DNA of 45,308 nt from a virus, in the IMG/VR virus record IMGVR_UViG_3300033571_002928, positions 1 through 45,308 of that record, one strand, 5' to 3'. This document shows, one piece after another, positions 3,229 through 33,959 of the stretch; positions within the stretch are counted from its first letter, which is position 1; every line of letters starts with the position of its first letter. A model generated the notes under the pieces. It saw only the letters and a list, made by a program, of their open reading frames with translations. It was not told where the DNA came from and made no database searches. A program made the position numbers and the translations under genes.

Positions 3229-3697
3229 ATGGGTGGCAATGGGTGCGTTTCTAGTTGCTGCGTTTGCGACGGGTTGGTGGCTAGGGGATTCTCTGAAACA
3301 GGGCGAGTGGGATGCGGCTCGTGCGCAGGAAGCGGAAGCTGTGGCTAAGGCTATGGAAGAGTCAAGAGCACAAGCAGTGTTCACGGAGCGCGAACTTACC
3401 AAAAAGCTGAACAACCAGTCAAAGCAATACCAAGTGAAACTACAGGAGAAGGATAGTGAAAAAGCTGCTGCTATTGAGCGTGCTCGTGTTGGCGGGTTGT
3501 GGGTCGATGTCCAAGCCAGTTCTAATAAAGACGGAGTGCCCGACTCTACCTCCGGTGCCTGCGGATGTGATGGTGGAACGACAGCCAGACTTTCTGAAGA
3601 GACTTCCAGACGCCTTATCGAACTCGCAAGCGAAGCCGACAAAATAGTTGAGCAATTAACTAGCTGCCAACAGATCCTCAAGGATGAAAGAAAATGA
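3203..3697 (+). CDS. Inner-membrane spanin (Rz-like)
   Basis: The start at 3203 (MFPNLWSAKW) is chosen because it has an AGGGG site and overlaps the holin by only 26 bases. The product has 164 residues: one N-terminal transmembrane helix (about 9-27), then a long charged periplasmic region (about 33-100) with coiled-coil character. This is the standard Rz i-spanin design, which joins an outer-membrane lipoprotein to disrupt the outer membrane after the endolysin acts. A complete second gene is nested inside it in another frame. A Gly/Ser/Cys-rich stretch in the middle (SSNKDGVPDSTSGACGCDGG) is where the nested gene constrains the sequence. Confidence 0.85.
   Translation: MFPNLWSAKWVAMGAFLVAAFATGWWLGDSLKQGEWDAARAQEAEAVAKAMEESRAQAVFTERELTKKLNNQSKQYQVKLQEKDSEKAAAIERARVGGLWVDVQASSNKDGVPDSTSGACGCDGGTTARLSEETSRRLIELASEADKIVEQLTSCQQILKDERK
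3456..3647 (+). CDS. Outer-membrane spanin lipoprotein (Rz1-like), nested in the i-spanin gene
   Basis: This 63-residue frame lies wholly inside the i-spanin gene in the +1 frame. It starts MKKLLLLSVLVLAGC: a basic start, a hydrophobic stretch and a lipobox (VLAGC) with the lipidated Cys at residue 15. The mature part is short and Pro-rich (PTLPPVP near residues 29-35), as in lambda Rz1. Signal peptidase II processing and anchoring in the outer membrane's inner leaflet are expected. The lipobox and nesting make this unlikely to be a chance frame. Confidence 0.85.
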   Translation: MKKLLLLSVLVLAGCGSMSKPVLIKTECPTLPPVPADVMVERQPDFLKRLPDALSNSQAKPTK

Positions 3698-4113
3698 TAA
3701 ACAGCCGCAACCTAGACGATCTCTTGCCTATTGTGCAAAAAAAGGTTAAGAGTTTTATAGACCTGTGCCATACTAATGGTATAGACATTCTTGTAACATC
3801 TACCTATCGGGACAATGAAAGCCAGAATGCTCTATATGCACAAGGCAGAACTACCCCCGGCAAGAAAGTAACCAATGCAAAAGCCGGAGAAAGTTGGCAT
3901 AATTATAGGTGCGCAATAGATGTAGTACCGTTGCGTAATGGCAAACCTGTATGGGATGGTAATGATCCTATATGGCAAAAGGTTGGTCAGTATGGTAGGG
4001 AAGCTGGCCTTGAGTGGGCTGGTGATTGGAAGAGGTTCAAAGAGCTTGCTCACTTTCAATATACAGGTGGCAAGACTTTAGCCCAACTTCGTGCGGGAGA
4101 GCTTATAGCATGA
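3694..4113 (+). CDS. Endolysin, M15 family D-Ala-D-Ala/L-Ala-D-Glu carboxypeptidase type
   Basis: The protein has 139 residues. It carries the M15 zinc peptidase signature: S67-W-H69 followed by D76 (SWHNYRCAIDV) and a second His at 120 (AHFQY). These would be the three zinc ligands. The upstream TSTYRD motif near residues 36-40 also fits the family. Such enzymes cut peptide bonds in peptidoglycan stem peptides. Its ATGA start overlaps the i-spanin stop. There is no signal peptide, so export depends on the holin. The exact bond cut cannot be read from sequence. Confidence 0.88.
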   Translation: MINSRNLDDLLPIVQKKVKSFIDLCHTNGIDILVTSTYRDNESQNALYAQGRTTPGKKVTNAKAGESWHNYRCAIDVVPLRNGKPVWDGNDPIWQKVGQYGREAGLEWAGDWKRFKELAHFQYTGGKTLAQLRAGELIA

Positions 4114-4364: not shown

Positions 4365-5297
4365 ATGAAAGTCAGCGATCAAGAGTTTATATCCGCTTGG
4401 GACAAACTCAAGAGTGCGGCTAAGGTAGCAAAAGCTTTTGATTTGAATATTCGCTCTGTTCACCGCAGACGAAAAAGCTTAGAGGGCAAATTTGGAAATG
4501 TCCTAAAGGCTGACCACCCAAACTCTCCGTCATTCACTATTAGAGAGCATTCGCCAAGAGTTGATTGCGAGCTTGCTAATGGCGTAATCGTTGTGGCATC
4601 TGACGCTCACTATTGGCCCGGTGTTGAAAGCACTGCGCACAAAGCGTTATTGAAGGTCGTTAAAGACCTAAGCCCATCTATCGTCGTGATGAACGGAGAT
4701 GTATTTGATGGCTCATCTATTAGCAGATTCCCAAAGCAAGGCTGGGGCAGGACTCCTACAGTCAAAGAAGAGCTAGTTGCTGTTGGTGAAAGACTAAGTG
4801 AGATCGAAGCTGTCGCTGGCAACGCAAAACTTTGGTGGACTATGGGTAATCATGACATGCGATTTGAGTCGCGGTTAGCCCAAGCTGTTCCAGAGTATGA
4901 AGGCGTTGGCGGGTTCACTCTATCTGAGCACTTCCCTCGATGGAAGCACAGCATGAGTCTCTTTGTCAATGACAGCCTAATGATTAAGCATAGGTTCCGA
5001 AATGGTGTACACGCCACTTGGAACAACGCACTCTATAGTGGAGTGTCTATGTGTACAGGGCACCTACATAGATTGCAGGCTACATTGTTTGCGGATTATA
5101 AAGGCGTTCGTTGGGGCATTGACACAGGCACTCTAGCTGAAGTTGATGGGGATCACATGCACTATGGTGAGGATAACCCAACTAATCATTGCTCTGGTTT
5201 TGCCGTTCTGACAATAGTCGACAATGAACTTATATACCCTGAGTTCTGCTCTGTTCAAAATGAGAAAGCGTTCTTCCGTGGAAAGCTTATCGAATAA
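4365..5297 (+). CDS. Calcineurin-like metallophosphoesterase
   Basis: The protein has 310 residues. All core metal-binding motifs of the metallophosphoesterase superfamily are present: D80-A-H82, G111-D112-V-F-D115, G161-N-H163-D164 and G232-H-L-H235. Residues 1-40 form a separate small helical part (KVAKAFDLNIRSVHRRRKSLE), which resembles a helix-turn-helix. The substrate could be nucleic acid, nucleotides or phosphoprotein; sequence does not decide. It sits six bases after the lysis cassette and nine before a structural gene. The HTH-like N-terminus suggests DNA contact and is unusual for a simple phosphatase. Confidence 0.88.
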   Translation: MKVSDQEFISAWDKLKSAAKVAKAFDLNIRSVHRRRKSLEGKFGNVLKADHPNSPSFTIREHSPRVDCELANGVIVVASDAHYWPGVESTAHKALLKVVKDLSPSIVVMNGDVFDGSSISRFPKQGWGRTPTVKEELVAVGERLSEIEAVAGNAKLWWTMGNHDMRFESRLAQAVPEYEGVGGFTLSEHFPRWKHSMSLFVNDSLMIKHRFRNGVHATWNNALYSGVSMCTGHLHRLQATLFADYKGVRWGIDTGTLAEVDGDHMHYGEDNPTNHCSGFAVLTIVDNELIYPEFCSVQNEKAFFRGKLIE

Positions 5298-5306
5298 GGA
5301 AAAATA

Positions 5307-7172
5307 ATGGCAGGTCTGAAACTGATGAGCCAAGGTGGGTACAATCCAAAGATTGCAACTCACTTGCTTGATGACGCAACAGGTCAGAGGGCAATCAATA
5401 CTAAGGTTTACTCAGGTGATCTTAGGTCTTGGTTTAAACCAAAAGCAGTTGAGCCTGTCTTTTCCTGCATCCCCGGCGGAGAAACAATCTATCTCGGGTT
5501 GGATAGTAATGGCGATGACAGGTGGATAGTTTGGGATACCCCTGTCTGGGTTGCTAAGTCTCCGATCTTAGATGAGACAGAGAACCTGCAAATATATTAT
5601 GCAGAAAATCTAGTTCTTAAAAAAACAAACTCAACCCTCGCTGGGGATTCTTCGTTTAATGGTGAGCCTCCTGATGAATGGTACTACGCCGGTATACCTG
5701 CGCCAACATCAGCACTGACCGCAACAGAAGTTCCGGGGGGATCGCAATCAGGAGGGCCAGAAGATAGGATTTACGTATACACGTTCGTTGATGAGTTTGG
5801 TTCTATCGAAAGCGAATCAGCTCCAAGTGCAGCGTCCAACACGGTAACTGTACGCAACAATCATAGCGTAAACCTAGCGGGCTTCCAAAACCCAACAGCA
5901 TTTCCAAACCGCAACATAACAAAGATACGCATCTATCGCTCAGTGACTTCTGCTGGCGGAGATCCAACATTCTTGCTTGTTGCTGAGATAGCCGCATCAT
6001 TAGTGGCTACTCCGGGCTATACATTCCATGACAATGTTAGAGCCACTAATTTAGGTGAGGCACTTCCTAGTTTGACATGGGTTGAGCCGCCAAACATGAC
6101 TGGCGTTGTTTTCCACCCGGGCGGTTTTCTAGTTGGGTGGCATAACCGAGAGATCATAATCTCAGAGGTAAACGCTCCTTATGCCTATCCTGTTCAGTAT
6201 CGTCAAACTATTGACTTTGACATTGTTGGTATGGGAGTGTTTGGATCGTCGATAGCTATTATGACTAAGGGCTATCCTTACATCATGAGCGGCAACTTGC
6301 CTGAGGCTATGACCCCAGAAAAGCTAGCAACGCTTGAACCTTGCATCAGCGCTCGCTCTATAACATCAGACGATGCTGGTGTTATGTATGCTAGTCCTAA
6401 CGGAATCTGCATGATTGGCGCTGGAGCTGGCGGATTAGCAACTGGTAACTTATTTACCAAGGATGAGTTTGGCGCGTTCAATCCAGTAACCATGAGAAGC
6501 GCTGTATATAACGGCAAGTACTTTGCATTTTATAAACAGGGAGCAAAGCATCCACTTCCTAACGGCGGTGTTATTCTGGATAGGGCTATCCCATCAAATC
6601 CATTATCCCTAACTAGTGCGATTGCTTCTGCTTGTTATGTAAACCCAGAAACATCGAACATGTATTACTTGGATGGCACAACCATCTACAAATGGGAAGG
6701 CGACATTTATAATAACTTCCCGTTTGAATGGTTATCAAAAACATTTATATTTGATATGCCAACCAATTTCGGTGCCGTTGAGATTGGCGGGGACTTTGCT
6801 AGCGTAGCTTCCTCGGAGCAAGCTGCAGAGTCTAGGCAGGAAATAATCAATGCAAACATAGCCTTGTGGAATACTGGAGCCCCTCTTAATGGCGCAATAA
6901 ACGATACGGTATTAAATCATTTTGATATCAATGGATCAATACTAGAGAACGTGCCAAGCTTGATTGATGATAGGTTTGTGCAGTTCACTCTCTATGCAGA
7001 AAAAGATGGTGTTATGACTGAGGTATACAACACGGTATATCTAGCCAATGGCGTATACCGATTGCCATCCGGACTGAAGTCTCAGAAGTTTGAGGTTAAG
7101 TTGGCAGGTAACTTGGAGTTTCGCTATATAAAGATGGCATCTACCGCTAAAGAACTAGCTAGACTGGAATAA
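5307..7172 (+). CDS. Probable tail/neck structural protein
   Basis: The protein has 621 residues and an AAGGA site before the ATG. It is beta-rich and Gly/Asn/Thr-rich throughout, with no transmembrane helix. It contains a Fn3-like segment at about residues 145-250 (YVYTFVDEFGSIESES, then NITKIRIYRSV). Size and position between lysis genes and internal virion proteins suggest a tail tube, tail-stabilising or connector protein of a podovirus tail. I do not recognise a named family, so the role is positional inference. Confidence 0.7.
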   Translation: MAGLKLMSQGGYNPKIATHLLDDATGQRAINTKVYSGDLRSWFKPKAVEPVFSCIPGGETIYLGLDSNGDDRWIVWDTPVWVAKSPILDETENLQIYYAENLVLKKTNSTLAGDSSFNGEPPDEWYYAGIPAPTSALTATEVPGGSQSGGPEDRIYVYTFVDEFGSIESESAPSAASNTVTVRNNHSVNLAGFQNPTAFPNRNITKIRIYRSVTSAGGDPTFLLVAEIAASLVATPGYTFHDNVRATNLGEALPSLTWVEPPNMTGVVFHPGGFLVGWHNREIIISEVNAPYAYPVQYRQTIDFDIVGMGVFGSSIAIMTKGYPYIMSGNLPEAMTPEKLATLEPCISARSITSDDAGVMYASPNGICMIGAGAGGLATGNLFTKDEFGAFNPVTMRSAVYNGKYFAFYKQGAKHPLPNGGVILDRAIPSNPLSLTSAIASACYVNPETSNMYYLDGTTIYKWEGDIYNNFPFEWLSKTFIFDMPTNFGAVEIGGDFASVASSEQAAESRQEIINANIALWNTGAPLNGAINDTVLNHFDINGSILENVPSLIDDRFVQFTLYAEKDGVMTEVYNTVYLANGVYRLPSGLKSQKFEVKLAGNLEFRYIKMASTAKELARLE

Positions 7173-10169: not shown

Positions 10170-13100
10170 ATGGCAACTTCTCCGATCTATAAGACTTCCA
10201 ACGAAGCAGGAACCGAATCACGGAGAAAGGGTCAAGCGATATCAAGCGGTAAGTATGAACCCGGAGCGTTTGCTCGTCAAGCAATTGGTGCAGAATATGT
10301 TCCGGGCCAGTACTCTAGTTCTCAGATCGGTCAAGACTACCAGCCGGGTGTGCTGGCCGATCAGGCACTTGCCGCAGGTCTCCCTTCCCCTTCCTCTCGT
10401 CGTCGAGGCATTGCGCCCTCAACCTCAGGCCCCAGCGCCGCCCCAGCATTTGATCCCCTAGCAGCTTACGAACAATCAATCCGTCGCGATCAAGCCCAAT
10501 CAGATATTTTGTCGTCTAAAAAACCTGAAGGTAATTTTTTGGGCGACTCTGCAAACGATCTTGTTATTGGCGGCTTGCAGCTTTATGGTGCTGGGTATGA
10601 GATCGCCAACTTAGTTTCTGGCGGGAAGATAGATCAGGCAATCAAAGACCGTACTGGCAAGACAGGTACAGAGAATCTTGCTGAAGGCCGGAAAATGCTT
10701 CAGCAACAACAATCACCCGCCCTACAAGCGCAACAAAAGGAACTAGAAGATGCAAAAGGATTTGTCGATAGCTTCTCAACCGTTGTTACAAATCCACGTC
10801 TGGCTGGTTCTATGGTTGTTCAGATGGTTCCACAGCTTGCCACAATTGGTATGGCAGCTCGTGCCGTTGCAATGCGTACCTTGGCTTGGGGTGCTGAAGC
10901 TGGCCTAACTGCTGAGGCCGCTCAGGCTGCTGCCGCTACCAATGCTACTCGCACAGTACTTGGTTTGAATGCTGTGATGGAAGGCGGTATGGCTGGCTCA
11001 GATTCACGTAGCCACATTCTGAATATGAAAGAGGAAGAATTATCCAAGTCTCCTCAATATCAACAACTCGTCAAAGAACTAGGCAATCCACAACTTGCTC
11101 GTATGAAGTTGGCAAACGATGCTTCATTGGTATCTACTGCTTTGGCTGGTTCTATTTCTGCTGTTGCTAGTAAATTAACTGGTGCTGCTGCTCTTGAGGC
11201 TGCGGTATTAGGTCGTGTTGCTAATAAGGTTGAACAGGAAGTAGGTAAGCGATCTGCTGCTGCTGTTGCCAAAGAGTTTGGTTTCGGCGTAGCAAAAGAA
11301 ACTGCAGAAGAAACCTTACAAGAAGGCGGATCTCAGTTTGCTCAGAACGTGGGCGGTGTGGTGTCAGGCGCTACACCAGAGAAGTCTTTACTGGAAGGTG
11401 TTTTTGAAGCTGCTGGTGCTGGTGGCGCTATGGGTATGCTGGCTGGCGCTGGATTCGGTGGCGGAAAGATTGCTATGGATAAAGGCGTTGAATCCGTAGC
11501 TAAAGCAGCAGAGCCAACTGGACAGGCATATAGCGGCCCCGGCGCAGGACAACTCACCGCAGTAGAGATGACTTCAGCTGCAAGGTCTCCCGCGTTTATG
11601 GCACATCAGTGGAGTGTTGCGGATCCAGAGACTCGCATTCGTTTACAAAATGCTAACCCTAATCTGAATCTTCAGGAGTTGGCTAAAGATGTTGATCTCG
11701 TCAACCAAGGTCGTCGCATATCAGAGTCGGCACCACAGTTTGCTCCTGCATTCATAAATCAACTACCAGAGTTTGATCTTGCTGCAGCTCAGGCAGAGGC
11801 ATCGCAGATTCAGCGCGTGGCTGGCGCTCCATCAATGGAAGGTGTTAAGACTGCCGCAAATCTTGGTATGCAAGAAGCTGAGTTTGGAATCACATCAGCT
11901 CGCCCACCGCTAACAACCGACCAAGAGGCTGGCATAGAACCTCCTGTTGTTCCTCTCACCCAAGAAGAGCAGGCAGTTCAGATCCGTGGTTACGAACGCC
12001 GTGTTGCTAACCTTGAAACTCTTCCAGAACAATACCGTCGTCAACAAGCTGACCTTGGTGTTCAGGAAATGGTTGAGCGCGGCTTCCCAAGAGAGGTGGC
12101 TGAGCAAACATTCTCCCCACTGCTTGGGCCTAGCTTAGAGACAGTACTCCAAGAAGGTGGTTATACGGCTGCACCAGGGGCTGCACAAGGCGTTCAAGAG
12201 TTCGAAGCGCCCGTCATAACACCAACGTCTCAAGCTACGCAGGAAGCTGTGCCTGTGGTGAGCGAGTCCGGCGAAGAACGAATGTCAGACGGCACGATGA
12301 CTGACGATCAGTTCTTAAACAATATTGTCAATTGGGATAACCAACGGCAAGGAGCTGGCACATCTAATCGCACAGACTACGAGATTGTACCTACTCCACC
12401 ACCCCTTCAGAAATTAGCTGACGCACTTGGCATCCAAGTAAAGGTGTGGAACTACAAGGGATCTAATTGGATCGGTCGTCGTCAAGGCATCTCAATGGGT
12501 CGGGGCGTTATTGGTATAAATGGTGGCCGTACATCAGCGGGTGGAGAATTCACTGTCTTTGGTCACGAGTTGTTCCATGAGCTTGCCTCCCGCGATAGGG
12601 TTGCTGCTCAGGCATTGATGAATGCGATGGAGCGTTACCTTGATAGTGATATCACCAATGAACTAAAACAAAAGCTGCGTGAAGTTGGTTATACAGAAGA
12701 CAAGCTAACCGAAGAAGTTGCTGCTGATGTGCTTGGCGTATTATTTGGCGAAGAATTATTCTGGAAGAGATTAGCTAAAAATCAGCCAACCTTGCTTGAG
12801 TCTATTATCGATGTTGTTCGCCAGATGATTGCGCGTATGACTAAGCTTGGCACTAGAGAAGCAATGGTTAAGAAAGCCATTAAGGATCTAGACAAAATCC
12901 AAGGCATGATGATTGGCTTCTTGAATGACGCAATCGAAGCGCAGTCAAGAGGTACATCGATTCAGGATAACGTCAGCTTAAATGCAACTCAAGCTGAGTC
13001 TCTCCAGAATGTACGTACATTGTTAGGACAGGGTAAGAGGGCTGAAGCTGCTGCTGCATTTAAGGCTGCCAACCTTTGGAAAGAAACTGGCCTGAACTTC

Positions 13101-16100
13101 AACGAGATTGAAAATCAAGAAGCGACAGTCGTAGATGAGCCAGAACCTACGACCGTAGAGGAGCCTGAAGTTCCATTCCGTCGCCCACAAGCAGAGGTGG
13201 ATGCAGAGAACGCTTACGCTACGATGCTTGAAGTTGTCGATCTGTTACGTGCTGGCAAGGTAGCTCAGGCAGCAAAGGCATTTAAGTCTGGGAACCTAGC
13301 TGAATTCGGAGAGAACTTCAAGGAACTAGCAGATCAAGTTGCCTCCGAAAAGAAGAAGCGGGTAAGCGAAGCTCAGTTCAAGACAGAGGAACAGAAGCGT
13401 TTGTCTCTGAAGTCTAAGCGTTCTATGTTTGATCGCAAGATACAGGACATAACGTCTGGCGTTACTAAGCGCGTTGAAGAGATGGTGTCTCAGCGTAAGG
13501 GTCTTGCTATTGCTGGTGCCAAGGCTTTCCGCCAACGTCAAACCGAGGAACGTGCTGCCGCTTTAATCGGGGAAGAGACTACACGGGGTATGCTAGCTGA
13601 CGATACTGGTGGAGTTATGACTCAGATGGCAGAAGCTGGTATGTACGGCGGCGCTGCTGGTCAGGCTGAAGCTCAGGATAAGCGCACTAAAGCAGAAGCA
13701 GCTCGCACAGAATCAGATCGTCTAGCAGAAGAGAACGCTACGATTCATAACAATAGAGTTCGTGCTTTGTTGTACAACGCTGACCGTGGATTGGAGCAAC
13801 TGGCAAAGATACGTCAGGAGATGGCTGCAGTTGGCTACAGTTCGACGGATATAGAAGCAGCTGTTGGTAAGGCCGAGGCTGATCTGAAGTCTTTGCGTGA
13901 TGGCGAGCTACGCGCATTAGCAGAACAACAACTACGTGACGCAAAGAATGTCGAGCCTAGGGAGGTTGTCGCAAAGGTTGAGCCAGAAGAATACACTGGT
14001 CAGCGCGAGCTTCAATTAGAACTTGATCTGAATGACGAGCAAAGACGTAACGCGCTTGCGTTGGTGGACGCCATCAAGAAAAAAGAGATGACGATGGATG
14101 GCGCCATGAAGGCAATCCGCGCCAATAAGATAGGTCAGATGCAGTTGTATGATGCAATGCGTCAACGCGGTGTGGTTGTGCCTAAGTCTTGGATAGATCT
14201 CACTGGCAACATATCTATCAACTACAGTTTGAACGATTGGGTTAAAGGATACCCTAACTCTGCTATGGCTGCGCGTGATGCGTGGTTCCGTTCTTTAGAT
14301 GCTGTGCCTGAGAGTATGCGCAACGCATCTGATGGTGAGTTGGCATCATTCCGCAACTGGAAGAAGGGCATCACAGAGCTGCGTAATCGTCTGAAAGAAA
14401 GCGGAGACAAGAGCTTTACTTCATTAGAGGACGCATTCCCTAACGCTCTGCCTCTTCAGTACACATTGAACGAGATGCGTAACCCAGCTAAGATTGATGG
14501 CGACAGAGGCCAGATGATTAGACTGGAGTTCGATGATCCTGTCCGTGCTTGGTTCAAAGATGTTCAGTATATTGAACAAGCTCGCCCAGATCTTGCTGCT
14601 CAGTTCCCTAACTTCTTGACTAAAGACGAGCAAGCTGCGTACAAAGAGTTCAAGGAGCGCGAGGATTCTGAGGCACGCCGCGCTGTCGAAATGAAAACAA
14701 AGTCTGCATTGTATTCCCAGATTGATGGGTTGAGATTCCTATCACCTAAGGTTTATACGGACTTCCGTTCACAAATTTCTCAGGCAGAAGAGCACCAGCT
14801 TGCAGCTATTATGCAGGCAGCATTTGAAGCCAACGAGTTTGCCGCTGATGCAATCGCTAATGGTGCTGATATCGACACAATCGGTGATCTCATGGATCGT
14901 CGTGCGTCTGAAGATGAAGGGTTCTCTCAGCCTGCAGATGAGATGAGCAGCGAAGAGCGACTTGACGATGATGGTAACTACTTAGGCTACGACGATAGCA
15001 TCAGGTTCAAACGCGGCACACACTCAGGTGTATTGTCAGCATTGAATGTTATTGAATCTTTAACTAAGATGTTCCACACTTGGAGTGTAAAGCCATCCTT
15101 TACAGTGGTGCAGAATCCAAACCAACTCCCTGATGATGTTCGTTCCCGTATCTACTCACGCTTTTCAGCAACAGGATTCAAGTCTGCGGTTGATCCTAAG
15201 ACTGGCCACCTGTACTTGTTCAGCGATTTCCTGAATGGCGATACAGACACACAGTTTGCTGCGTTCAATGAGATCTATGGCAACTGGGGGGTACGTGGAT
15301 TCATGGGTGATTCTCTTAAGACATTCTTAGAGAACCAATACCGCCTGAATCAGAAGGTTCGTGAGGCTGCTGATCGCTTGATAGAAGAGCGTCAAGCTAT
15401 GGGCATCCCAACTTCCCCTCTAGAAGCTACCGAGGCTGTGGTTGGTGATACTGCAATACACACTATACACACTAAGTTTGCTAGCTGGCTAGAGAAGAAC
15501 GGATTCCCTGATGTTGCTAATTGGATAAACTCATCCACCAACACAGAGGTCGCATCGATTCTGTCTGCTACTAGAGAGGCAGCTAAGTCTCAGGGTATAT
15601 CTCCTTTGGGCGGTATGCCTAACGACAGCATCAGCTTTGACCGCAACAAGATGCCAGTCGAGGGATATGCCTACCGTAACGGTGAGATCACAGCGTATGC
15701 TCGCGTCAATCCAATTACTGGTGACTGGATTGTATTCACTCTGAAGGACGGTGCCAAGTCTATCAATGAGGGCGAGTACAACATCACCACAACGGATGAC
15801 CTGCAGATAGCGCACAACATGATGAAGCAGTACGGCACTGTGCGTCTAGCCCGTGCTCGCGAAACCCTGCGCTACATCGGCCCAGATAACATTGAGAAGA
15901 TCAAAGGCTGGGATGAGAGCGATGCGTGGTGGACAAGGGCTAAGCGTTGGGTTATTCAAGGCGCTCAGAATAAGTTCTTGCCAATCTGGGAAGTGGCTCA
16001 GCAATTGTCTATGGCAGGCAAAGACAATACTGTGGTTGATGACTTGGTTAAGTACGAGTCGCGCACAGGATACTACGTTGATGACTACAAGCGTAGATAC

Positions 16101-18917
16101 CTGAACCCAATCATGAAAGCTTTGCGTCGTCTTGATAACCAGCACGGTCTCAGCATAGAGGACGTTGACCTATTCTTAATGGCTCGTCATGCCGAAGAAA
16201 GAAACTCCACAATCAAGTCAATCAACCCAAACAATTCTCAGGGTTCTGGCTTGGCTACAAAGGAAGCGAAGAAAATCCTATCATCTAAGAATGATGGCGC
16301 TTGGAGTGCTGAGGCAATGGTAGAGCTGGAGATGATCGGCAAGCTAATGGATCAAATGTCTTCCGACAAAACCAATTACTTGCTGCAGACTGGCATGATC
16401 TCGAAGTATCAGTACGAAGCACTGAAGAGATACAAGCACTACGTCAACCTATCTGGTAATAGTGAGACTGATCTAGACAAGTACGATGCTTCTGCCCTTG
16501 GTGGTCGTGCCTTCAATGTGCGTGGATCAGATGTTATTCGCTCAACTGGCCGAGGCACCACAGCTATTGACGTTCTTCAGAATACGATGAACTCATACCT
16601 GTCTGCAATTATTCGTGGTCAGAAGAACAAACCTCTGCAGTCTATTCTCGACATGTTCGAGCAGAACCCTGATAAGACTTACGTCGAAGTCAATCCAATT
16701 GAAACAGTTCAGCGTGTCAATGTTGATAGATTCAACTTTGATAACAAGATACTGAAGATACTTGGTACAGATAAAGACGATGTAAGAGCAGGCAAGAACT
16801 TCTTGGTTGGCTTGAAGGAACGAATGAAGCGAGGCGAAATAGATTCTGATGACGCCTTAGCAGAAATCGTGCAGCGCATTCGTGAAGCAGAAGAGCGTCG
16901 AGCTATCCAGCCAGATGAGGCAGCTCGCGCTATTCGTAATCTGAATGAGCAAGTTGTCATGTCGGCAAGACTATCTCCAGATGGTTATGTAAGTATGGTT
17001 GAGATGTCTGGACGAAGAGACCCTAACGAAGTAATCGTCAAGGTCAATGGCAAGACTATCTCTATGGTGTTCAAGGGTCGTGGCCTGCCGTTCTTCCAAG
17101 CTATTACAGGAATGAACATTCAAAAGTCCAACGCATTCTTTGAAGGACTTAGCAAGTGGGCAACATTCTTCAGCCAGATGGTAACGTCTTGGAATCCTGC
17201 TTGGGTGCCAATCAACATGTTCCGAGATGTGCAGACCGCATTCTCAAATATGTCTGCTGATCCTGAGGTGGGTGCTGGACTAGCCAAGAAGATGATAAAG
17301 GAGTACGGTCGCTCCCTAAAGATTGCCACGCGCTACAAGCTGTACGATTGGGCTGGCATGAAAGAAGGTCGGTTCAGGGACTTCGTTAATAAGATGCAAA
17401 CGAAATACCCAATGGATGATGCCGAGCGCAAACTGATCGATGAGTTCTTCGAGGATGGATCGGGCACATACTTCCTTGATAGAGGCGGTCTTGAAGTTAC
17501 ATTGGACTCGTTGCAACAAGCTATGAACGCAAACAAACCGGGTGTTGTTGGTATGACCAAAGAAGCGTTTGGTGAATACACAGCTTGGATGGATCTGGTT
17601 GGTATGTCTGTTGAGATTGCCCCTCGTCTAGCAGCGTACACAGTTCTGCGTAAGGCAGGCAAGTCACGTGAGTTTGCTTCTCGCTATGCTAAAGAACTCA
17701 CAGTCAACTTCAACATGAAGGGAACAAGCAGAGAGCTACGTGCTGCATACGTTTTCTTCAACCCTGCAGTTCAAGGTACCGTGCGTATGTTCAAGGATCT
17801 GAAGGCTGGAAACTTGGGCAGGTTCGGAGCCACCGCTGGATTCTGGATGGGCATGGGATTCATCTCGACAATGATCGCTAGGTCTTTGAGCGGAGATGAC
17901 GATGATCGTCCGGGGGTTGACAGTATAGATATGGTTGCTTCGTACAAGAGAAACACATCACTCACTTGGTTGCCGGGTGTTGTGGGTGGCTCTATCCCTG
18001 TAGCCTACGGATGGAATGTGTTCTCCGCCGCCGGACAGTATATGTACGATACGATTCATGGGTACATGCCAGCATCCACCGCAGCGATGAAGGTTATGGC
18101 TGCAGCATTTGATGCGTTCTCACCAATTGGTTCTGGCGCTGAGTCAAAAACTCTGGCTGGATCAGTTATGAAAACAGCAACACCTAGCATAGCAATGCCA
18201 GTAGTAGAGTGGAACATGAACGAAAATAGGTTCGGCGCTCCAATCTACAAAGAGCAAAGCCCATTCTCAGATATCAAAGAGGCAAATGCTTACATGCATT
18301 TCAACTCTGTAAATCCTATATCGAAGTGGGCAATGCAATCTCTGGTTGAGGTTGGCACAAGTAAGAACGCACGATACACACCGGGTCTTATTGATGTCAA
18401 TCCTGCGATGGTGGATCACTTCATCAACTCATATCTACCGGGAATTTTCTCTGAAGGATATAAGTCTGCTGGCTTGGCTATCAAAGAAGCACGAGGGGAA
18501 GACACGAAGGATATGCCAGTTCCTCTGCTCGATAGGTTCAAGGCAAAAGCTGAACCTGAAGGTTTCGATGCTTCTGCAGTTCGTAACCTAAAAGTTACAA
18601 TCGATACCATGTGGGAGGCGTGGAAACAACCAGACACAACTCCACAGGAAAAAGCGCAGATGAAGGCAGACTATCCTGACCTAGCAAGACTGAAAGCTTT
18701 GTCTCAAGCTAATGAGCAAGCAATCAAATCTGCTCGTCAGGCTGCGTCTAAGTTGGAGCGCGATCCCAAAGTCTCAGATGAATACAAAGTTGAGATAAGG
18801 AATCGCGTCAAGACACTGGAGGAAACTTACAATACACGCCTCGTTAAGAAAGCATTAGAGGCTGGGTGGCGTGATACTATTTTGTATGGTCAAGGTGAGC
18901 CTTCTCCGCCGAAATAG
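10170..18917 (+). CDS. Giant polyvalent virion protein with metallopeptidase motif
   Basis: The protein has 2915 residues, about a fifth of the window. Residues 25-70 carry three Y-x-P-G repeats (YEPG, YVPG, YQPG). Residues 125-440 include several amphipathic or hydrophobic Ala/Gly-rich stretches. A zinc-peptidase motif H799-E-L-F-H803 is followed by E848-E849-x-x-A-D852, a plausible third ligand. Long charged coiled-coil regions follow. Around residues 2340-2580 the sequence (MFRDVQTAFSNMS, FNMKGTSRELRAAYVFF) resembles the LPD38-type domain of large polyvalent phage proteins. Such proteins are thought to be injected with DNA. No helicase, methylase or lysozyme motif was seen. The C-terminus overlaps the opposing gene by 41 bases. 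Confidence 0.85.
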   Translation: MATSPIYKTSNEAGTESRRKGQAISSGKYEPGAFARQAIGAEYVPGQYSSSQIGQDYQPGVLADQALAAGLPSPSSRRRGIAPSTSGPSAAPAFDPLAAYEQSIRRDQAQSDILSSKKPEGNFLGDSANDLVIGGLQLYGAGYEIANLVSGGKIDQAIKDRTGKTGTENLAEGRKMLQQQQSPALQAQQKELEDAKGFVDSFSTVVTNPRLAGSMVVQMVPQLATIGMAARAVAMRTLAWGAEAGLTAEAAQAAAATNATRTVLGLNAVMEGGMAGSDSRSHILNMKEEELSKSPQYQQLVKELGNPQLARMKLANDASLVSTALAGSISAVASKLTGAAALEAAVLGRVANKVEQEVGKRSAAAVAKEFGFGVAKETAEETLQEGGSQFAQNVGGVVSGATPEKSLLEGVFEAAGAGGAMGMLAGAGFGGGKIAMDKGVESVAKAAEPTGQAYSGPGAGQLTAVEMTSAARSPAFMAHQWSVADPETRIRLQNANPNLNLQELAKDVDLVNQGRRISESAPQFAPAFINQLPEFDLAAAQAEASQIQRVAGAPSMEGVKTAANLGMQEAEFGITSARPPLTTDQEAGIEPPVVPLTQEEQAVQIRGYERRVANLETLPEQYRRQQADLGVQEMVERGFPREVAEQTFSPLLGPSLETVLQEGGYTAAPGAAQGVQEFEAPVITPTSQATQEAVPVVSESGEERMSDGTMTDDQFLNNIVNWDNQRQGAGTSNRTDYEIVPTPPPLQKLADALGIQVKVWNYKGSNWIGRRQGISMGRGVIGINGGRTSAGGEFTVFGHELFHELASRDRVAAQALMNAMERYLDSDITNELKQKLREVGYTEDKLTEEVAADVLGVLFGEELFWKRLAKNQPTLLESIIDVVRQMIARMTKLGTREAMVKKAIKDLDKIQGMMIGFLNDAIEAQSRGTSIQDNVSLNATQAESLQNVRTLLGQGKRAEAAAAFKAANLWKETGLNFNEIENQEATVVDEPEPTTVEEPEVPFRRPQAEVDAENAYATMLEVVDLLRAGKVAQAAKAFKSGNLAEFGENFKELADQVASEKKKRVSEAQFKTEEQKRLSLKSKRSMFDRKIQDITSGVTKRVEEMVSQRKGLAIAGAKAFRQRQTEERAAALIGEETTRGMLADDTGGVMTQMAEAGMYGGAAGQAEAQDKRTKAEAARTESDRLAEENATIHNNRVRALLYNADRGLEQLAKIRQEMAAVGYSSTDIEAAVGKAEADLKSLRDGELRALAEQQLRDAKNVEPREVVAKVEPEEYTGQRELQLELDLNDEQRRNALALVDAIKKKEMTMDGAMKAIRANKIGQMQLYDAMRQRGVVVPKSWIDLTGNISINYSLNDWVKGYPNSAMAARDAWFRSLDAVPESMRNASDGELASFRNWKKGITELRNRLKESGDKSFTSLEDAFPNALPLQYTLNEMRNPAKIDGDRGQMIRLEFDDPVRAWFKDVQYIEQARPDLAAQFPNFLTKDEQAAYKEFKEREDSEARRAVEMKTKSALYSQIDGLRFLSPKVYTDFRSQISQAEEHQLAAIMQAAFEANEFAADAIANGADIDTIGDLMDRRASEDEGFSQPADEMSSEERLDDDGNYLGYDDSIRFKRGTHSGVLSALNVIESLTKMFHTWSVKPSFTVVQNPNQLPDDVRSRIYSRFSATGFKSAVDPKTGHLYLFSDFLNGDTDTQFAAFNEIYGNWGVRGFMGDSLKTFLENQYRLNQKVREAADRLIEERQAMGIPTSPLEATEAVVGDTAIHTIHTKFASWLEKNGFPDVANWINSSTNTEVASILSATREAAKSQGISPLGGMPNDSISFDRNKMPVEGYAYRNGEITAYARVNPITGDWIVFTLKDGAKSINEGEYNITTTDDLQIAHNMMKQYGTVRLARARETLRYIGPDNIEKIKGWDESDAWWTRAKRWVIQGAQNKFLPIWEVAQQLSMAGKDNTVVDDLVKYESRTGYYVDDYKRRYLNPIMKALRRLDNQHGLSIEDVDLFLMARHAEERNSTIKSINPNNSQGSGLATKEAKKILSSKNDGAWSAEAMVELEMIGKLMDQMSSDKTNYLLQTGMISKYQYEALKRYKHYVNLSGNSETDLDKYDASALGGRAFNVRGSDVIRSTGRGTTAIDVLQNTMNSYLSAIIRGQKNKPLQSILDMFEQNPDKTYVEVNPIETVQRVNVDRFNFDNKILKILGTDKDDVRAGKNFLVGLKERMKRGEIDSDDALAEIVQRIREAEERRAIQPDEAARAIRNLNEQVVMSARLSPDGYVSMVEMSGRRDPNEVIVKVNGKTISMVFKGRGLPFFQAITGMNIQKSNAFFEGLSKWATFFSQMVTSWNPAWVPINMFRDVQTAFSNMSADPEVGAGLAKKMIKEYGRSLKIATRYKLYDWAGMKEGRFRDFVNKMQTKYPMDDAERKLIDEFFEDGSGTYFLDRGGLEVTLDSLQQAMNANKPGVVGMTKEAFGEYTAWMDLVGMSVEIAPRLAAYTVLRKAGKSREFASRYAKELTVNFNMKGTSRELRAAYVFFNPAVQGTVRMFKDLKAGNLGRFGATAGFWMGMGFISTMIARSLSGDDDDRPGVDSIDMVASYKRNTSLTWLPGVVGGSIPVAYGWNVFSAAGQYMYDTIHGYMPASTAAMKVMAAAFDAFSPIGSGAESKTLAGSVMKTATPSIAMPVVEWNMNENRFGAPIYKEQSPFSDIKEANAYMHFNSVNPISKWAMQSLVEVGTSKNARYTPGLIDVNPAMVDHFINSYLPGIFSEGYKSAGLAIKEARGEDTKDMPVPLLDRFKAKAEPEGFDASAVRNLKVTIDTMWEAWKQPDTTPQEKAQMKADYPDLARLKALSQANEQAIKSARQAASKLERDPKVSDEYKVEIRNRVKTLEETYNTRLVKKALEAGWRDTILYGQGEPSPPK

Positions 18918-27907: not shown

Positions 27908-28304
27908 TAGTAGAGCTAAGGGCAAGTCAGCGGAGAGGGAAGTTATATCTTTGCTATCTCAGATGATACCTACGCTGAACCTAGAAAGAAACCTTGAGCA
28001 AACTAGAGATGGTGGGTATGATATCAAGGGGCTGGAAGGTTGGGCGCCTGAGGTTAAAAGGTATGCACAGATAAACCATTCTGATGTAGAGAGATTCTGG
28101 AAGCAGGCAGTAGAGCAGTCACTCAATTCCATGAGAAAGCCTGTGTTGTTTATGAGGGCTGATAGGCAGGATTGGGTTGTTGTTGTTAGGTTGACAGACG
28201 TGTTAGATAACTTCATTGATGATGACAATAGTTTAGCTATGACTTGTCAATTAACTATGACTGGTTTCTATCATGTATGGAAGATGTATGATTGGGAAAT
28301 ATAA
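27894..28304 (+). CDS. PDDEXK resolvase-like endonuclease
   Basis: The protein has 136 residues. SRAKGKSAEREVISLLSQ is the N-terminal helix with the conserved Lys/Glu of Holliday-junction-resolvase-like nucleases, followed by GGYDIKGLEGW and PEVKRYA, giving the D-x(n)-E-x-K catalytic triad. Expected role: resolving branched DNA before packaging or trimming DNA ends. It overlaps its neighbours by 14 and 1 bases. Confidence 0.8.
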   Translation: MAKINSRAKGKSAEREVISLLSQMIPTLNLERNLEQTRDGGYDIKGLEGWAPEVKRYAQINHSDVERFWKQAVEQSLNSMRKPVLFMRADRQDWVVVVRLTDVLDNFIDDDNSLAMTCQLTMTGFYHVWKMYDWEI

Positions 28305-28684
28305 TGCCTCAGATATATGACAATGAGTGGCAGGGTAGACATAAGAGAGTACTGTGTATTTGTAGTGCAAACATGTTGCGCTCACCAACGATGCAGTTTA
28401 TCTTATCCTCCGAGCCATTCAATTACAACACACGAAGCGCGGGGACATACCCATACGCACTCATCCCAATGTCGGCAGAGCTATTGCTGTGGGCTGATGA
28501 GATTGTATGCGCGGATACTGAGCACGTACAAAAGGTTCTTTCTGTGGCAGATAACATATCTCCACTGATAAAGGAAAAGCCAATTGTCAACCTTCGTATC
28601 CCAGACATCTATGAATACAGGCACCCACATCTTGAGCGCCTCATTGAAGATAGGTATATAGCGTGGCTTAATGAGACAACCTAA
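28304..28684 (+). CDS. Low-molecular-weight protein tyrosine phosphatase-like protein
   Basis: The protein has 126 residues from ATG 28304, in TAATG overlap with the resolvase gene. The P-loop reads VLCICSANMLRSPT, i.e. C20-x5-R26-S, the phosphate-binding loop of LMW-PTP enzymes, and matches the predicted tyrosine phosphatase group with LLLWADEIVCAD downstream. An IPD near residue 102 could supply the acid Asp. It would remove phosphate from tyrosine or arginine side chains, or act on nucleotides. It is unusual in a replication operon and may target a host signalling protein. Confidence 0.8.
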   Translation: MPQIYDNEWQGRHKRVLCICSANMLRSPTMQFILSSEPFNYNTRSAGTYPYALIPMSAELLLWADEIVCADTEHVQKVLSVADNISPLIKEKPIVNLRIPDIYEYRHPHLERLIEDRYIAWLNETT

Positions 28685-29536: not shown

Positions 29537-29929
29537 TTAGCTCACGGTATTCTGTTGCACTTGCTGCTTTGATACTTCTAAACGCTTATACAGACGACGC
29601 TTTGCAGCATTCTTCTTTGCTGCCTTGCGTATGTTATCCAATGCTGCACCCTGTCTCTTCTTGCCTATGTCAGAACGACGCTTACGTCTTACTGCTTTCT
29701 TCTTGGGTGTAGCTTGTGGTTTGCTTTCGACCTGAAGTTTAATGGACTTGATATCATCTTCCAAGTCCTGCAGTTTGTCAATGGCATTGAACATCGTTAG
29801 CAATTCACCCTCCGTACTGCGAAAGTTTTCCTTCGCTGCGTTCGCAACTCTTTTCAAAAGAGCAGCTAACAAAGGCGGGTTACTGCATGAGATGACTTCA
29901 TCTGCAAACTTGATTGACGTGTTGTTCAT
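29537..29929 (-). CDS. Basic hypothetical protein
   Basis: The protein has 130 residues. N-terminal helical half (VISCSNPPLLAALLKRVAN), then a very basic Lys/Arg/Ala tail from about residue 75 (KKKAVRRKRRSDIGKKRQG), suggesting nucleic-acid binding. The start overlaps the upstream stop (ATGA). It is the last firm gene of the amidoligase block. Confidence 0.65.
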   Translation of the reverse strand: MNNTSIKFADEVISCSNPPLLAALLKRVANAAKENFRSTEGELLTMFNAIDKLQDLEDDIKSIKLQVESKPQATPKKKAVRRKRRSDIGKKRQGAALDNIRKAAKKNAAKRRLYKRLEVSKQQVQQNTVS

Positions 29930-30423
29930 GCTGCGATCCTTTCATGCGTTGGTTTCATAAATTTTTCTACTGATCTTTTTAATTCCTGCAGACTTACAAA
30001 GTTAGATGCATACGATGGAAAGATTCCAACCTTAAGACTCTTCTCATACACCTCAATGAATCTTGGGAGAAGATTGTTGTCAATAAGGTAATTCCTCCAC
30101 GCTATTGTTCTACTATCAGAAGTTGCGGCAGATGTCATGCGATGTCTAACTGTGTTGTTGTACTCATCTGATGTCATCTTAACTATCGTGAAATCAAAGT
30201 CGCTACGTCGTGGCCCCATGATAAGTTGAACCTTATGAGTGGATGGAACCACTTGCCCCGCCGTAATTGCAGCAATATTCGCTGGGTAGATTCTACCTTC
30301 GCCGTCGGTTGATTCTCTATAAGCAGCGGTGGCAACAGCTTGATACATGATTTTCATCATCGGGTCTTGTTCAGCCATATCCCCCACAAATCGTGAGTAC
30401 ACCTTAAACATTTTATTGCACAT
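29926..30423 (-). CDS. Hypothetical protein downstream of the glutamine amidotransferase
   Basis: The start at 30423 (MCNKMFKVYSRFVGD) has AAGGAG nine bases upstream and overlaps the amidotransferase end by 11 bases; a longer frame to 30603 lies inside that gene and is rejected. The product has 165 residues, soluble, mixed alpha/beta, with no clear motif. Tight linkage with the amidotransferase and amidoligase suggests it serves the same pathway, perhaps as substrate or partner. Confidence 0.65.
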   Translation of the reverse strand: MCNKMFKVYSRFVGDMAEQDPMMKIMYQAVATAAYRESTDGEGRIYPANIAAITAGQVVPSTHKVQLIMGPRRSDFDFTIVKMTSDEYNNTVRHRMTSAATSDSRTIAWRNYLIDNNLLPRFIEVYEKSLKVGIFPSYASNFVSLQELKRSVEKFMKPTHERIAA

Positions 30424-31636
30424 GACTATGTTCTCCTTTGGAAGAATTTGGTTTTGTGATTTCAGCAAGGTCAAGCAACATCTCTTCATGCTCTGACCAC
30501 ATGTCAATGATTGCATCTGCTCCCCACGTTGGATCTGTGCTGACGTTATCCGACAAAGCCTCAGATGTAAAGCGCGGGTTATGCTCATCGCCATAGATTT
30601 CATACAGCATTGCAGACGCTTTCATTGGGTTCTCGCTTACCCAACGAATGACTCCGTGATAATCATCTGTCATCATTGCGTTGTAGCTTGAGCGTATGAT
30701 CCGAGCAAGCGCTTCGTTTGATAACTTGATTGCTGGGTTGCTCTTCTTCTTGCGTGTTACTTCACCAGCATTAGCTTTGGCAATTGTCTTTGCCTTGGCT
30801 TTGTGCTTTTGTACTCGCTTTCGATTAGCTTTAGCACTGGCTTTTGCATCCCACTTAAGTTCTGCTTGAGCTGTGTTGTCTGGTTGCTTGCGTGCAACTG
30901 AGGGTGAGCGATATCCTTCTGCTTCCCATTGGTTGTACTCATCTTCCTCAAGCTCATTCCATAAGCGCCACGAAGAACTTGATCCGTAGTGGTGCTTGTT
31001 GCCATTGTGTACTGAGCCTCTTTTGTTGTAGTTGGTACCTGAGTAATAGTTGTAGCTCGGCGCTTCTTCGTAACCGTGCTTGTAAGGAGACCAAGCATAG
31101 GTGTTGGAATACCAGACGCCATCGTACTCAACGCCTGAATGTTTGTTGATGATGTACACCTTGCCTTCATTACTCATGAAGCCGAACTTGTTAGAGGCAC
31201 CGATGTGAACGCCAACGTAACCGCGTATGTAAGGATTGTCTAAGGCATCGGGAGTCTGCTCAAGCATTGGTCGAATGAAGTCTTTGATGTAATGCCAAGT
31301 GTCTGACTTAGACTTATCTTTGTCATTGCCGCTTGAGAGAATACCGTTGTGTGCCATCCACAGATTATCTGTGACTATATAAGGATGACAGTTATCCAAG
31401 TCTATATCGCCGTGAGTTTTCATGCGGAAGTGGATGACAGATTCGTAGCATGCTACTGATTTGAAATACAGATCCTCGATGTCTTTGAGTGAGCCTACTA
31501 TCTTGTAAACAACTACTCCGCGCTCATCGTTGTGGTTTACGATTGCTCCGAAGCCGTCTGGGTTCTTTGAGTAGAAGTCTGCTAGGTGTTCCGCCGTGAA
31601 GCAATAGTCCTTCGGCTGATGGATGAGAATACACAT
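30413..31636 (-). CDS. Class II glutamine amidotransferase-like protein
   Basis: The protein has 407 residues and begins MCILIHQPKDY. In class II (Ntn-type) amidotransferases Cys2 becomes the N-terminal nucleophile that frees ammonia from glutamine. The family motifs HFRMKTHG (69-76) and AHNGIL (95-100) that line the glutamine pocket are present, with NPDGFG at 25-30. After about residue 170 comes a Tyr/Gly/Asn/His-rich insert and then a Lys/Ala-rich linker (about 265-295), followed by a helical C-terminal domain. It is encoded 32 bases after the amidoligase, whose amine donor it could feed. Confidence 0.85.
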   Translation of the reverse strand: MCILIHQPKDYCFTAEHLADFYSKNPDGFGAIVNHNDERGVVVYKIVGSLKDIEDLYFKSVACYESVIHFRMKTHGDIDLDNCHPYIVTDNLWMAHNGILSSGNDKDKSKSDTWHYIKDFIRPMLEQTPDALDNPYIRGYVGVHIGASNKFGFMSNEGKVYIINKHSGVEYDGVWYSNTYAWSPYKHGYEEAPSYNYYSGTNYNKRGSVHNGNKHHYGSSSSWRLWNELEEDEYNQWEAEGYRSPSVARKQPDNTAQAELKWDAKASAKANRKRVQKHKAKAKTIAKANAGEVTRKKKSNPAIKLSNEALARIIRSSYNAMMTDDYHGVIRWVSENPMKASAMLYEIYGDEHNPRFTSEALSDNVSTDPTWGADAIIDMWSEHEEMLLDLAEITKPNSSKGEHSHVQ

Positions 31637-31668
31637 AAGTTAATTCCTTTTTATTTAGGTGGTTGAAG

Positions 31669-33234
31669 TTATGCTGCTGCTGCTTGTTGAGTGGTGTTCT
31701 GTTCATTGTCATTTGTACCATCCAACGAAAGATAAGAACGCAAGAAACGATTCTCTGCTTTGCGCTCTGGTTTCATGAGCCAATCCTTGAAACCTATTGC
31801 TGTGAACTGAGTCAGTGATACTTCGCCGGGAGTGCAGAACGTAAGCAAAGCATTAACAAACTCTAGTGCCGCCATAATAGATTCGTATCGAAGGGAGCCA
31901 CGGAAAATCCTGAACTCGATTGTGTCTGCGTTGGTTACATTCAGGGCTTCGTAACGCTCTGTGCTATGCTTACCCTTTACTGTGAACTTAGAAAGGTAAG
32001 GCTTGAACCGACAGTAGTTATTGTCATACCGTCTAGCAACAGAACGGATGAGAGCTTCATTACGAACGTCATTAAGGAACGACTGGACTCGATATATCTG
32101 AGCTTGAGTTAAGAACTCACGACCGACGTGGACATGCAAACCACAGGCACCACCTTCGTGTGAACGTAAACCCATCTTTAGTTTTCCGTTGTTGAGGAAC
32201 CTACCTAGACGATCACGATGTACGTCAAGTCCTGCTGGCTGGCTAACAATCTCGAAGCCTTCTCCAATAGAACCGTCGCGCTCGAAGTAACAATACTCAC
32301 CTAGCTCATGTGTCTTGTAGTTCAAAGCTTCATGAACTGCAGCAAGTTTTGTATCAAGATCGCCATTGCGTAGCTGAACCTCTAGCTCTATGCCGAAGGC
32401 TCTGCGGTTTAGCAGGAACCAATCAGAACTTACAATGTCAAAGCCCTTGTTGCGTGAGCTATGATAGCTACCAAGAAGATCTCCATAAGGAGTCCACATT
32501 TGGTCAACCCATATACCACGCGCCTCGTGGAAGGAAAATATACTGCGACGACGGTCATCAATGTACGATGAGTTGTGTCTACTAAATACTGTGACTGCAA
32601 ATTCTGCCAGTATTAGCCTTCCGCTCCTGCCGTGTACTCGCTCTCCAGATTGCAGCATTTGGTTTGCGCATACTTGGCATGCTGTTAGAATCTTGTCAAT
32701 AGATGAGGCATTACCCTCTGTAAACTTGCTTCGATTAGTATCCTCGTAGTGACCGCAAGAATGACGTTCAAAGTTATACACTTCGCACCAGTTAATGAAC
32801 CAAGCTTTCTGAGATGCGTTGTCAGCCGATATTGCCGCTGGGAAAAACTCTGGATACCACTTGTCAGCTAGCCGTTGATAGGTTGTGTCCACTCCAGTTA
32901 CTGAATCAACATTCATTGGTCCAGCGTGTATGCCAAGCTTGATTAGGTCTAGTGTAAACATGGTGCGCAAGTGACCCATCTTAAACTTCTTGGCAATCTT
33001 ATTGCTAATTCCTTCTAAGAATGTAATGAACTCTACGCGTTTGGATATGTCTTCGATATCCTCGAAAACAAACTGAGTAATGCAGAACCATTTGTTGCGA
33101 TGCACATTTCTGCCATTGGATCGTGCCATTGACTGCATGTACTTCTTCATGTATCCTTTCCAGAAAGAAATGTTTGCCTCTGGATTCTTGACTTTGATTC
33201 TTGTGTAGTCATACAGTTTAAACAGGTGTGACAT
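31669..33234 (-). CDS. Amidoligase (COOH-NH2 ligase family) with N-terminal Cys/His domain
   Basis: The protein has 521 residues and a perfect AAGGAGG before the ATG. The C-terminal half carries the Amidoligase_2 motifs: FGIELEV (280-286), ERDGSI then GFEIVSQP (318-333), CGLHVHV (364-370) and TIEFRIFRGS (438-447). These bind ATP and metal and join a carboxylate to an amine, as in gamma-glutamyl-cysteine-ligase-like folds. Residues 1-270 are a separate domain with C160, H162, C186 and C189, a likely zinc site. Family members pair with glutamine amidotransferases to modify proteins or peptides. The target here is unknown. Confidence 0.88.
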   Translation of the reverse strand: MSHLFKLYDYTRIKVKNPEANISFWKGYMKKYMQSMARSNGRNVHRNKWFCITQFVFEDIEDISKRVEFITFLEGISNKIAKKFKMGHLRTMFTLDLIKLGIHAGPMNVDSVTGVDTTYQRLADKWYPEFFPAAISADNASQKAWFINWCEVYNFERHSCGHYEDTNRSKFTEGNASSIDKILTACQVCANQMLQSGERVHGRSGRLILAEFAVTVFSRHNSSYIDDRRRSIFSFHEARGIWVDQMWTPYGDLLGSYHSSRNKGFDIVSSDWFLLNRRAFGIELEVQLRNGDLDTKLAAVHEALNYKTHELGEYCYFERDGSIGEGFEIVSQPAGLDVHRDRLGRFLNNGKLKMGLRSHEGGACGLHVHVGREFLTQAQIYRVQSFLNDVRNEALIRSVARRYDNNYCRFKPYLSKFTVKGKHSTERYEALNVTNADTIEFRIFRGSLRYESIMAALEFVNALLTFCTPGEVSLTQFTAIGFKDWLMKPERKAENRFLRSYLSLDGTNDNEQNTTQQAAAA

Positions 33235-33577
33235 TTGCTACCTCCTTTTTGACATCTTTGGGTAATGGTAACTTGGTGTACTTTCCTATTGATTCAGGCT
33301 TAGGATTGAACTTCATGTCTAACTGAGCAATTTTGCTTGGCCCCATGTTGAGCGCGCCTATAAGAGAGTCGAGCAGTTCTGATGCATTCATATGATCTAT
33401 GTCATTTAAGTCCTCTGCCCATGTGCCGTAATTATTTTCTACGGCTGTGATGCATCCGTAGTCGTATGAGTAATCAACCTCCCATCCGAACTCATCTCTC
33501 ATAAACAAAGTAACTTTCTTTGCCAAGCTTGCGTTACCTTGACGGAAAGCTCGTAGCCATACTCGGTTAGTCATCAT
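33218..33577 (-). CDS. Hypothetical protein upstream of the amidoligase
   Basis: The protein has 119 residues. AAGGAG precedes the ATG pair (MMTNRVW). The core is mixed alpha/beta (VTLFMRDEFGWEVDYSYDYG, ELLDSLIGALNMGPSK) and the tail is Pro/Lys-rich (KLPLPKDVKKEVAN). The end overlaps the amidoligase start by 17 bases, so its product is made in step with the ligase. It could be a substrate or adaptor; no family recognised. Confidence 0.65.
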   Translation of the reverse strand: MMTNRVWLRAFRQGNASLAKKVTLFMRDEFGWEVDYSYDYGCITAVENNYGTWAEDLNDIDHMNASELLDSLIGALNMGPSKIAQLDMKFNPKPESIGKYTKLPLPKDVKKEVANVTPV

Positions 33578-33959
33578 CGTTCTCCTTCTTTATTGTGCGG
33601 ATCTTGTTGGACAGTTGTTCTAATTGACCATCGATTGTTTCTGATATGCGTTCTGAAATCTCAACGATCTCATTAACTTGTTCGTCGCTTAGATTTAGCA
33701 ATCGCATGACTAGAGTTGCTCCGCCTGCTGCTACCTGAGCGAACTGTAACTCGACTGCTTTCTTGATATTGTCTGGGGCATACTGCGTTGCAACTGATAT
33801 GAGCTTGGCTGTATGGCTGACACCAGATACAAACTTGACAACTTCCATGTAGTCTCTACCCTTAATGGATTCTAGGTTGTCGAAGTATTCCTGAACGGAC
33901 TCCTCTAAGTTTGACTTGGTATCTTGTAACGCTTTCTTTAATGCATCATCTTGATTCAT
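33567..33959 (-). CDS. Hypothetical helical protein
   Basis: The start at 33959 (MNQDDALKKALQD) has AAGGAG upstream; a longer frame to 34067 lies inside the preceding gene. The product has 130 residues and is almost all helix, with a central FAQVAAGGATLVMRLLNL stretch that might touch a membrane or form a bundle, and long coiled-coil ends. It overlaps both neighbours. No family recognised. Confidence 0.68.
   Translation of the reverse strand: MNQDDALKKALQDTKSNLEESVQEYFDNLESIKGRDYMEVVKFVSGVSHTAKLISVATQYAPDNIKKAVELQFAQVAAGGATLVMRLLNLSDEQVNEIVEISERISETIDGQLEQLSNKIRTIKKENDDD

Follow-up and report, generated by a model that had tools for sequence, protein, structure and literature searches.

Class II amidotransferases free ammonia from glutamine, and GS-fold ligases use ATP to activate a carboxylate before coupling it to an amine or ammonia. 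In phages, the pairing of an amidoligase with a glutamine amidotransferase (GATase) has been published for LUZ24-like phages, phiEco32, RIO-1, mycobacteriophage Marvin and the OM43 phages MEP401 and MEP402 (PMC3890496, PMC10580990, PMC5498523, PMC3517423), and the target guessed for these pairs in the literature is the cell wall, with blocking of superinfection as the outcome (PMC10580990, PMC5498523). Our literature search found no biochemistry, proven substrate or product for any phage pair. As cited by others, the pair was reportedly predicted in 2009, and it has since been annotated in many phages.

The DNA analyzed here is a linear 45-kb viral fragment (45,308 nucleotides, hereafter the window) that is probably incomplete; its relatives measure about 55-58 kb. 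It carries a ligase gene and a GATase gene that together form a well-supported further example of the amidoligase-GATase module, which is not new to phages in itself. The GATase gene lies 32 bases downstream of the ligase gene, and overlapping genes flank the pair on each side. A sequence-only reading of the window had given these open reading frame coordinates and this gap, and both proved exact. The features discussed below are:

31669-33234, minus strand: ligase gene, Amidoligase_2 (GS-fold carboxylate-amine ligase), 521 aa, assigned from Pfam, PHROG, conserved residues and fold
Ligase residues about 278-466: catalytic core, with E283/E285, D320-S322, E328, H367/H369, R402, R427, N432 and E440/R442
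32668-32757, minus strand: probable zinc knuckle of the ligase (C160, H162, C186, C189), from conservation
30413-31636, minus strand: class II GATase gene, Ntn-hydrolase, 407 aa, assigned from motifs, fold and confidence profile
GATase domains: glutaminase, about 1-185; disordered linker, about 190-300; conserved helical C-terminal domain, about 305-395
31644-31649, minus strand: Shine-Dalgarno-like AAGGAA, 7 bases 5' of the GATase ATG, from sequence
33218-33577, minus strand: gene for a 119-aa protein, overlapping the ligase start; a near-clade operon neighbor
33567-33959, minus strand: gene for a 130-aa helical protein; an operon neighbor whose linkage to the pair is not strict, from locus comparison
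29926-30423, minus strand: gene for a 165-aa protein, overlapping the GATase stop; clade-specific, from locus comparison

The best annotated relative was Podoviridae sp. ctgrD200 (MW202733), in which ligase (40% identity) and GATase (42% identity) are adjacent in the same order, but the flanking genes are unrelated and matched none of the window's neighbor families. MEP401, MEP402 and Marvin also share this gene order, and the window's ligase and GATase profiles matched MEP402 at E=6e-29 and 1e-33, and Marvin at 4e-12 and 2e-15, respectively. The ligases of these three phages have a Cys-rich region before the core, like the window's, but identity is only about 30-33%, the N-terminal regions differ, and the C-terminal part of their GATases is shorter.

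The 'peptidoglycan modification' cassette of LUZ24, tf and UFV-P2 (also RIO-1 and phiEco32) likewise has Amidoligase_2 followed by a class II GATase. UFV-P2 gp23 is a remote homologue whose alignment to the window's ligase family spans the catalytic core and runs through active-site motifs (hhalign E=6.8e-6), but unlike the window ligase it begins only about 27 residues ahead of the core and has no zinc knuckle. UFV-P2 gp25 did not match the window GATase profile and gave only a short, weak profile-profile match. The cassette also has an extra COOH-NH2 ligase, an ATP-grasp enzyme and a gamma-glutamyl cyclotransferase. Searches with PF14395 (COOH-NH2 ligase) and PF06094 (cyclotransferase) found neither in the window nor in 14 pair-carrying relatives, with the UFV-P2 positive control detected, and a search of the window for RimK ATP-grasp (PF08443) found none. 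Membership in the LUZ24/phiEco32-type cassette was rejected because these companion genes were not found, with the reservation that the window is shorter than its relatives, so that a gene missing from it could lie beyond its ends.

Families, folds and conserved residues

The product of 31669-33234 is an Amidoligase_2 protein, as the sequence-only reading had claimed. It scored 26.6 bits against PF12224 (E=6.6e-6), above the curated cut-off of 22, and matched PHROG_16683 at E=5.7e-31 and PHROG_2443, 'amidoligase enzyme', at E=9e-11. The core residues are invariant among 87 aligned sequences, and the paired Glu/His metal-ligand-type residues and the Arg in a C-terminal strand are present as in the GS superfamily. 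The predicted structure (pLDDT 80, a moderate model confidence) matched PDB 1tt4, 5dm3 and 7oxy in Foldseek, with YbdK first, followed by glutamine synthetase, Dop and PafA; the YbdK entry is itself titled predicted glutathione synthase, and we take it to be YbdK. Whole-length TM-scores were low because the ligase has a long N-terminal region that the templates lack. Among close relatives, dN/dS of the ligase was about 0.17-0.18, and the gene is under purifying selection. Members of the ligase family also occur in giant viruses of eukaryotes (Catovirus, Hyperionvirus), and a single profile scan of genome contigs returned one distant Brachyspira locus only, with a different gene order.

Within the N-terminal region, C160, H162, C186 and C189 are invariant in an alignment of 14 close relatives, and Cys160, Cys186 and Cys189 are kept in 85-86 of the 87 sequences. 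The window's clade has C160/H162 together with C186/C189; many more distant ligases have CxxC-CxxC. Judged from this conservation pattern, what had been described as an unrecognized Cys/His domain is probably a zinc knuckle; the residues had been picked out correctly. Ahead of the catalytic core, 86/87 ligase sequences have one or more CxxC, making the putative knuckle part of what defines this phage ligase subfamily. Searched against the sequences of solved structures, the ligase profile gave no useful match, its only hit being an insignificant one to the zinc-ribbon protein eL43 (E=0.48).

The product of 30413-31636 is a divergent class II GATase, an assignment that the earlier reading had also made and that is supported here by motifs and fold. 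Its score of 17.8 bits against PF13230 (GATase_4) lies below the Pfam cut-off of 23, which is a sensitivity threshold and not a structural feature of the GATase family, so the Pfam test by itself does not establish membership. NCBIfam glmS models matched at 1e-5 to 2e-4. Across 87 aligned GATases, C2, N25, D27, H69, R71, T74-H75-G76, H84-P85, H96-N97-G98 and S111-D112-T113 are invariant or nearly so. The protein starts MC, and Cys2, present in 87/87 sequences, is predicted to act as the nucleophile after Met removal. The GlmS-like glutamine-binding set (R-x2-THG, HNG and D) is complete, as R71, T74-G76, H96-G98 and D112. The predicted structure, only moderately confident overall (pLDDT 69), resembled the GlmS glutaminase most closely (E=3e-6, probability 1.00), then EgtC (TM by target 0.46-0.50 in Foldseek) and PurF. 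The GATase is likewise under purifying selection, with dN/dS of about 0.11-0.15 among close relatives.

A Tyr/Gly/His-rich stretch of the GATase, at about 185-240, had been singled out as an insert. The stretch exists, but as a functional insert it was rejected: its pLDDT is mostly below 50, its length differs among relatives, and it is better described as a poorly ordered and poorly conserved linker.

Inheritance and neighborhood of the pair

The ligase and GATase genes are inherited together. The ligase alignment retrieved 80 viral contig loci, every one with the GATase as well. Of 80 loci retrieved with the GATase, 78 also have the ligase; the remaining two lie on truncated contigs that start within 0.5 kb of the gene. 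Among 86 distinct loci, defined at 95% ligase identity, the pair is adjacent with the ligase first in 82, with a median gap of 24 bases. The sequence-only reading would have been undermined by related phages keeping one gene only; apart from truncated contigs, none turned up in the ligase subfamily. The distance matrices of the two proteins also agree (Mantel r=0.87). None of 163 loci encoded a ligase-GATase fusion, and fusion was dropped as a proof of a complex.

Contigs found by the phage's primase provided a sample independent of the pair. Both genes were present in 16/16 contigs that had primase identity of at least 54% and extended more than 7 kb past the primase. Two further primase-found contigs end inside or just past the GATase, and one contig at 54% identity has neither gene in its 6.1 kb of downstream sequence. 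Contigs of the sister clade, with primase identity of 50% or lower, had neither gene within their flanks, and a whole-record ligase search in 17 of these records found none. These results indicate that the two genes form a unit throughout the clade and are gained or lost jointly. Among more distant relatives, the Amidoligase_2 genes of Clostridioides phage AR1086-1 and of a Microcoleus phage have no adjacent GATase match, showing that the ligase superfamily does not always need a GATase. The AR1086-1 ligase lies at L164:3668-4780, and the next gene (4847-5857) looks nucleotidyltransferase-like by eye.

Profiles of ten window genes were searched against the 86 distinct loci to see which neighbors accompany the pair. 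The three coupled proteins that had been put forward as substrates or carriers did not hold up in this role; in most of the family the pair occurs without conserved copies of them, which led to their rejection there. The 33218-33577 family occurs at 14 loci, in the near clade only and each time directly upstream of the ligase; its C-terminal motif SVGxxTKxPxPK is conserved there, and no family match was found in Pfam, PHROG or NCBIfam. Relatives of 33567-33959, which has weak sub-threshold SepF/prefoldin matches in Pfam, occur at 32 loci; at 11 of these they are separated from the pair by about 6 kb and encoded on the opposite strand. The 29926-30423 family, with no match in Pfam or PHROG, is present at 4 loci. 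None of the flanking proteins has a conserved Pup-like carrier tail with a C-terminal Glu/Gln end. At the more distant loci, 102 scanned neighbors gave matches to DUF932, HTH, DUF3846 and NinX, with no partner enzyme among them. As no third gene common to the wider family was found, the pair alone is the conserved unit. A known anti-phage defense component was also considered and rejected, with no credible PADLOC match and only weak ones, to the helical protein 33567-33959.

In the wider genome, the closest terminase relatives (identity of 48% or lower) belong to phages of Pelagibacter, Methylophilales, Vibrio, Cronobacter and Burkholderia, and a nucleotide search of annotated phages with the window found no close relative. 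Several other genes were recorded in passing. A metallophosphoesterase (4365-5297, plus strand; PHROG_221, E=5e-24) sits amid tail and virion genes, and genes of this type have also been reported in the OM43 phages with an amidoligase pair (PMC10580990). A VanY-type D-alanyl-D-alanine carboxypeptidase (3694-4113, plus strand; Peptidase_M15_4) is likely the endolysin. The structural gene region includes a giant 2915-aa protein (10170-18917, plus strand) with an LPD38 domain close to its C-terminus, probably an ejected internal virion protein. A 130-aa protein at 28292-28684 (plus strand) resembles low-molecular-weight protein tyrosine phosphatases, with CSANMLRS followed by RSAGT and an intact Cys-x5-Arg pattern; its database matches were insignificant (PDB ywlE, E=0.47; NCBIfam phosphotyrosine-protein phosphatase, E=0.099). 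Finally, a basic 130-aa protein (29537-29929, minus strand) has an RSDxGxKRxGxAxxNIRxA motif, conserved among relatives, that recalls NUMOD-type DNA-binding motifs of homing endonucleases; it received no Pfam call.

A candidate amide synthase and its target

Since both catalytic sets are intact and the genes are inseparable, the pair is most economically read as a single two-subunit, glutamine-dependent amide synthase, the interpretation toward which we lean, if only slightly. The GATase would hydrolyze glutamine at Cys2 and pass the ammonia to the GS-fold ligase. With ATP and metal bound by residues of the E283/E285/E328/H367/H369 type, the ligase would turn a carboxyl group into an activated acyl phosphate and then into the amide. 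The N-terminal zinc knuckle would most likely position the carboxyl-bearing substrate or a partner subunit. The coupling of the genes described in the sequence-only reading is supported, and so is its predicted reaction class, glutamine-dependent amide or peptide-bond chemistry.

The target can be guessed by analogy. In MurT-GatD, which amidates D-glutamate in peptidoglycan, a separate glutamine amidotransferase subunit feeds an ATP-dependent ligase, as proposed here; MurT-GatD combines a Mur-ligase fold with a class I GATase and is not homologous to the window's pair. By this analogy, a host cytoplasmic peptidoglycan precursor or other surface precursor is a tentative first guess, and a phage or host protein the next. 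The present analysis neither supports nor excludes a cell-wall target. Hosts of giant viruses of eukaryotes are without typical peptidoglycan, and the presence of the ligase family in these viruses argues against peptidoglycan as a universal target. It is conceivable, though doubtful, that the pair serves as a dedicated phage enzyme for amidating carboxyls on one particular host or virion macromolecule, a modification undescribed in phages, with the knuckle as its substrate-docking module.

The main rival to an amide synthase is a gamma-glutamyl pathway, in which the ligase would join glutamate or another amino acid to an amine and the GATase-like protein would later cleave or trim the bond, as with EgtA and EgtC in ergothioneine synthesis. 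Since the GATase is similar both to GlmS and to EgtC, an enzyme that hydrolyzes a gamma-glutamyl amide, it may act on something other than free glutamine, and the fold search cannot tell the two chemistries apart. The ligase's first fold match, YbdK, is gamma-glutamyl-cysteine-ligase-like, and the LUZ24-type cassette includes a gamma-glutamyl cyclotransferase. However, neither this enzyme nor the COOH-NH2 ligase was found alongside the pair in the window or the 14 relatives, and no further pathway gene is linked to it, leaving this pathway an unlikely explanation.

Peptide tagging or cross-linking in the manner of PafA and Pup, with the ligase adding an amino acid or a small carrier (for example the product of 33218-33577 or 33567-33959) to a host or virion protein, would fit the presence of PafA and Dop among the top ligase fold matches and the small overlapping genes upstream of the ligase. 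It is nonetheless improbable: pupylation involves a small substrate with a conserved C-terminal Glu/Gln, which the window's neighbors do not provide, outside the near clade the small genes are not kept with the pair, and the GATase is left without a role.

Modification of a DNA base or nucleotide through an amide has a precedent in the amino-acid-bearing hypermodified bases of other phage genomes, but the scanned window proteins, a set that took in only part of the small ORFs, included no thymidylate-synthase-like, kinase or transferase partner family and the pair's neighbors are mostly small unknown, HTH or DUF932 proteins, making this a rather remote prospect. Most improbably, the pair would boost host amino-acid or nitrogen assimilation, as claimed for phage ZRK32, the carrier of a related gene set; that claim is based on whole-phage growth effects and not on the pair's genes, and the subfamily-wide zinc knuckle suggests a specific substrate instead of bulk nitrogen assimilation.

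Implications of a two-gene unit

The minimal conserved unit consists of two genes that always occur together in the clade; the ligase has a probable zinc knuckle, and no further neighbor is required. Compared with the larger LUZ24-type cassette, such a unit lends itself more readily to expression and assay, and the lack of conservation of its neighbors makes the flanking genes unlikely substrates. When phage FJK.R9 was put through experimental evolution, both evolved lines gained missense changes in the amidoligase and the aminotransferase-type GATase, among other genes (PMC11450229). These changes in both genes suggest that the pair affects infection.
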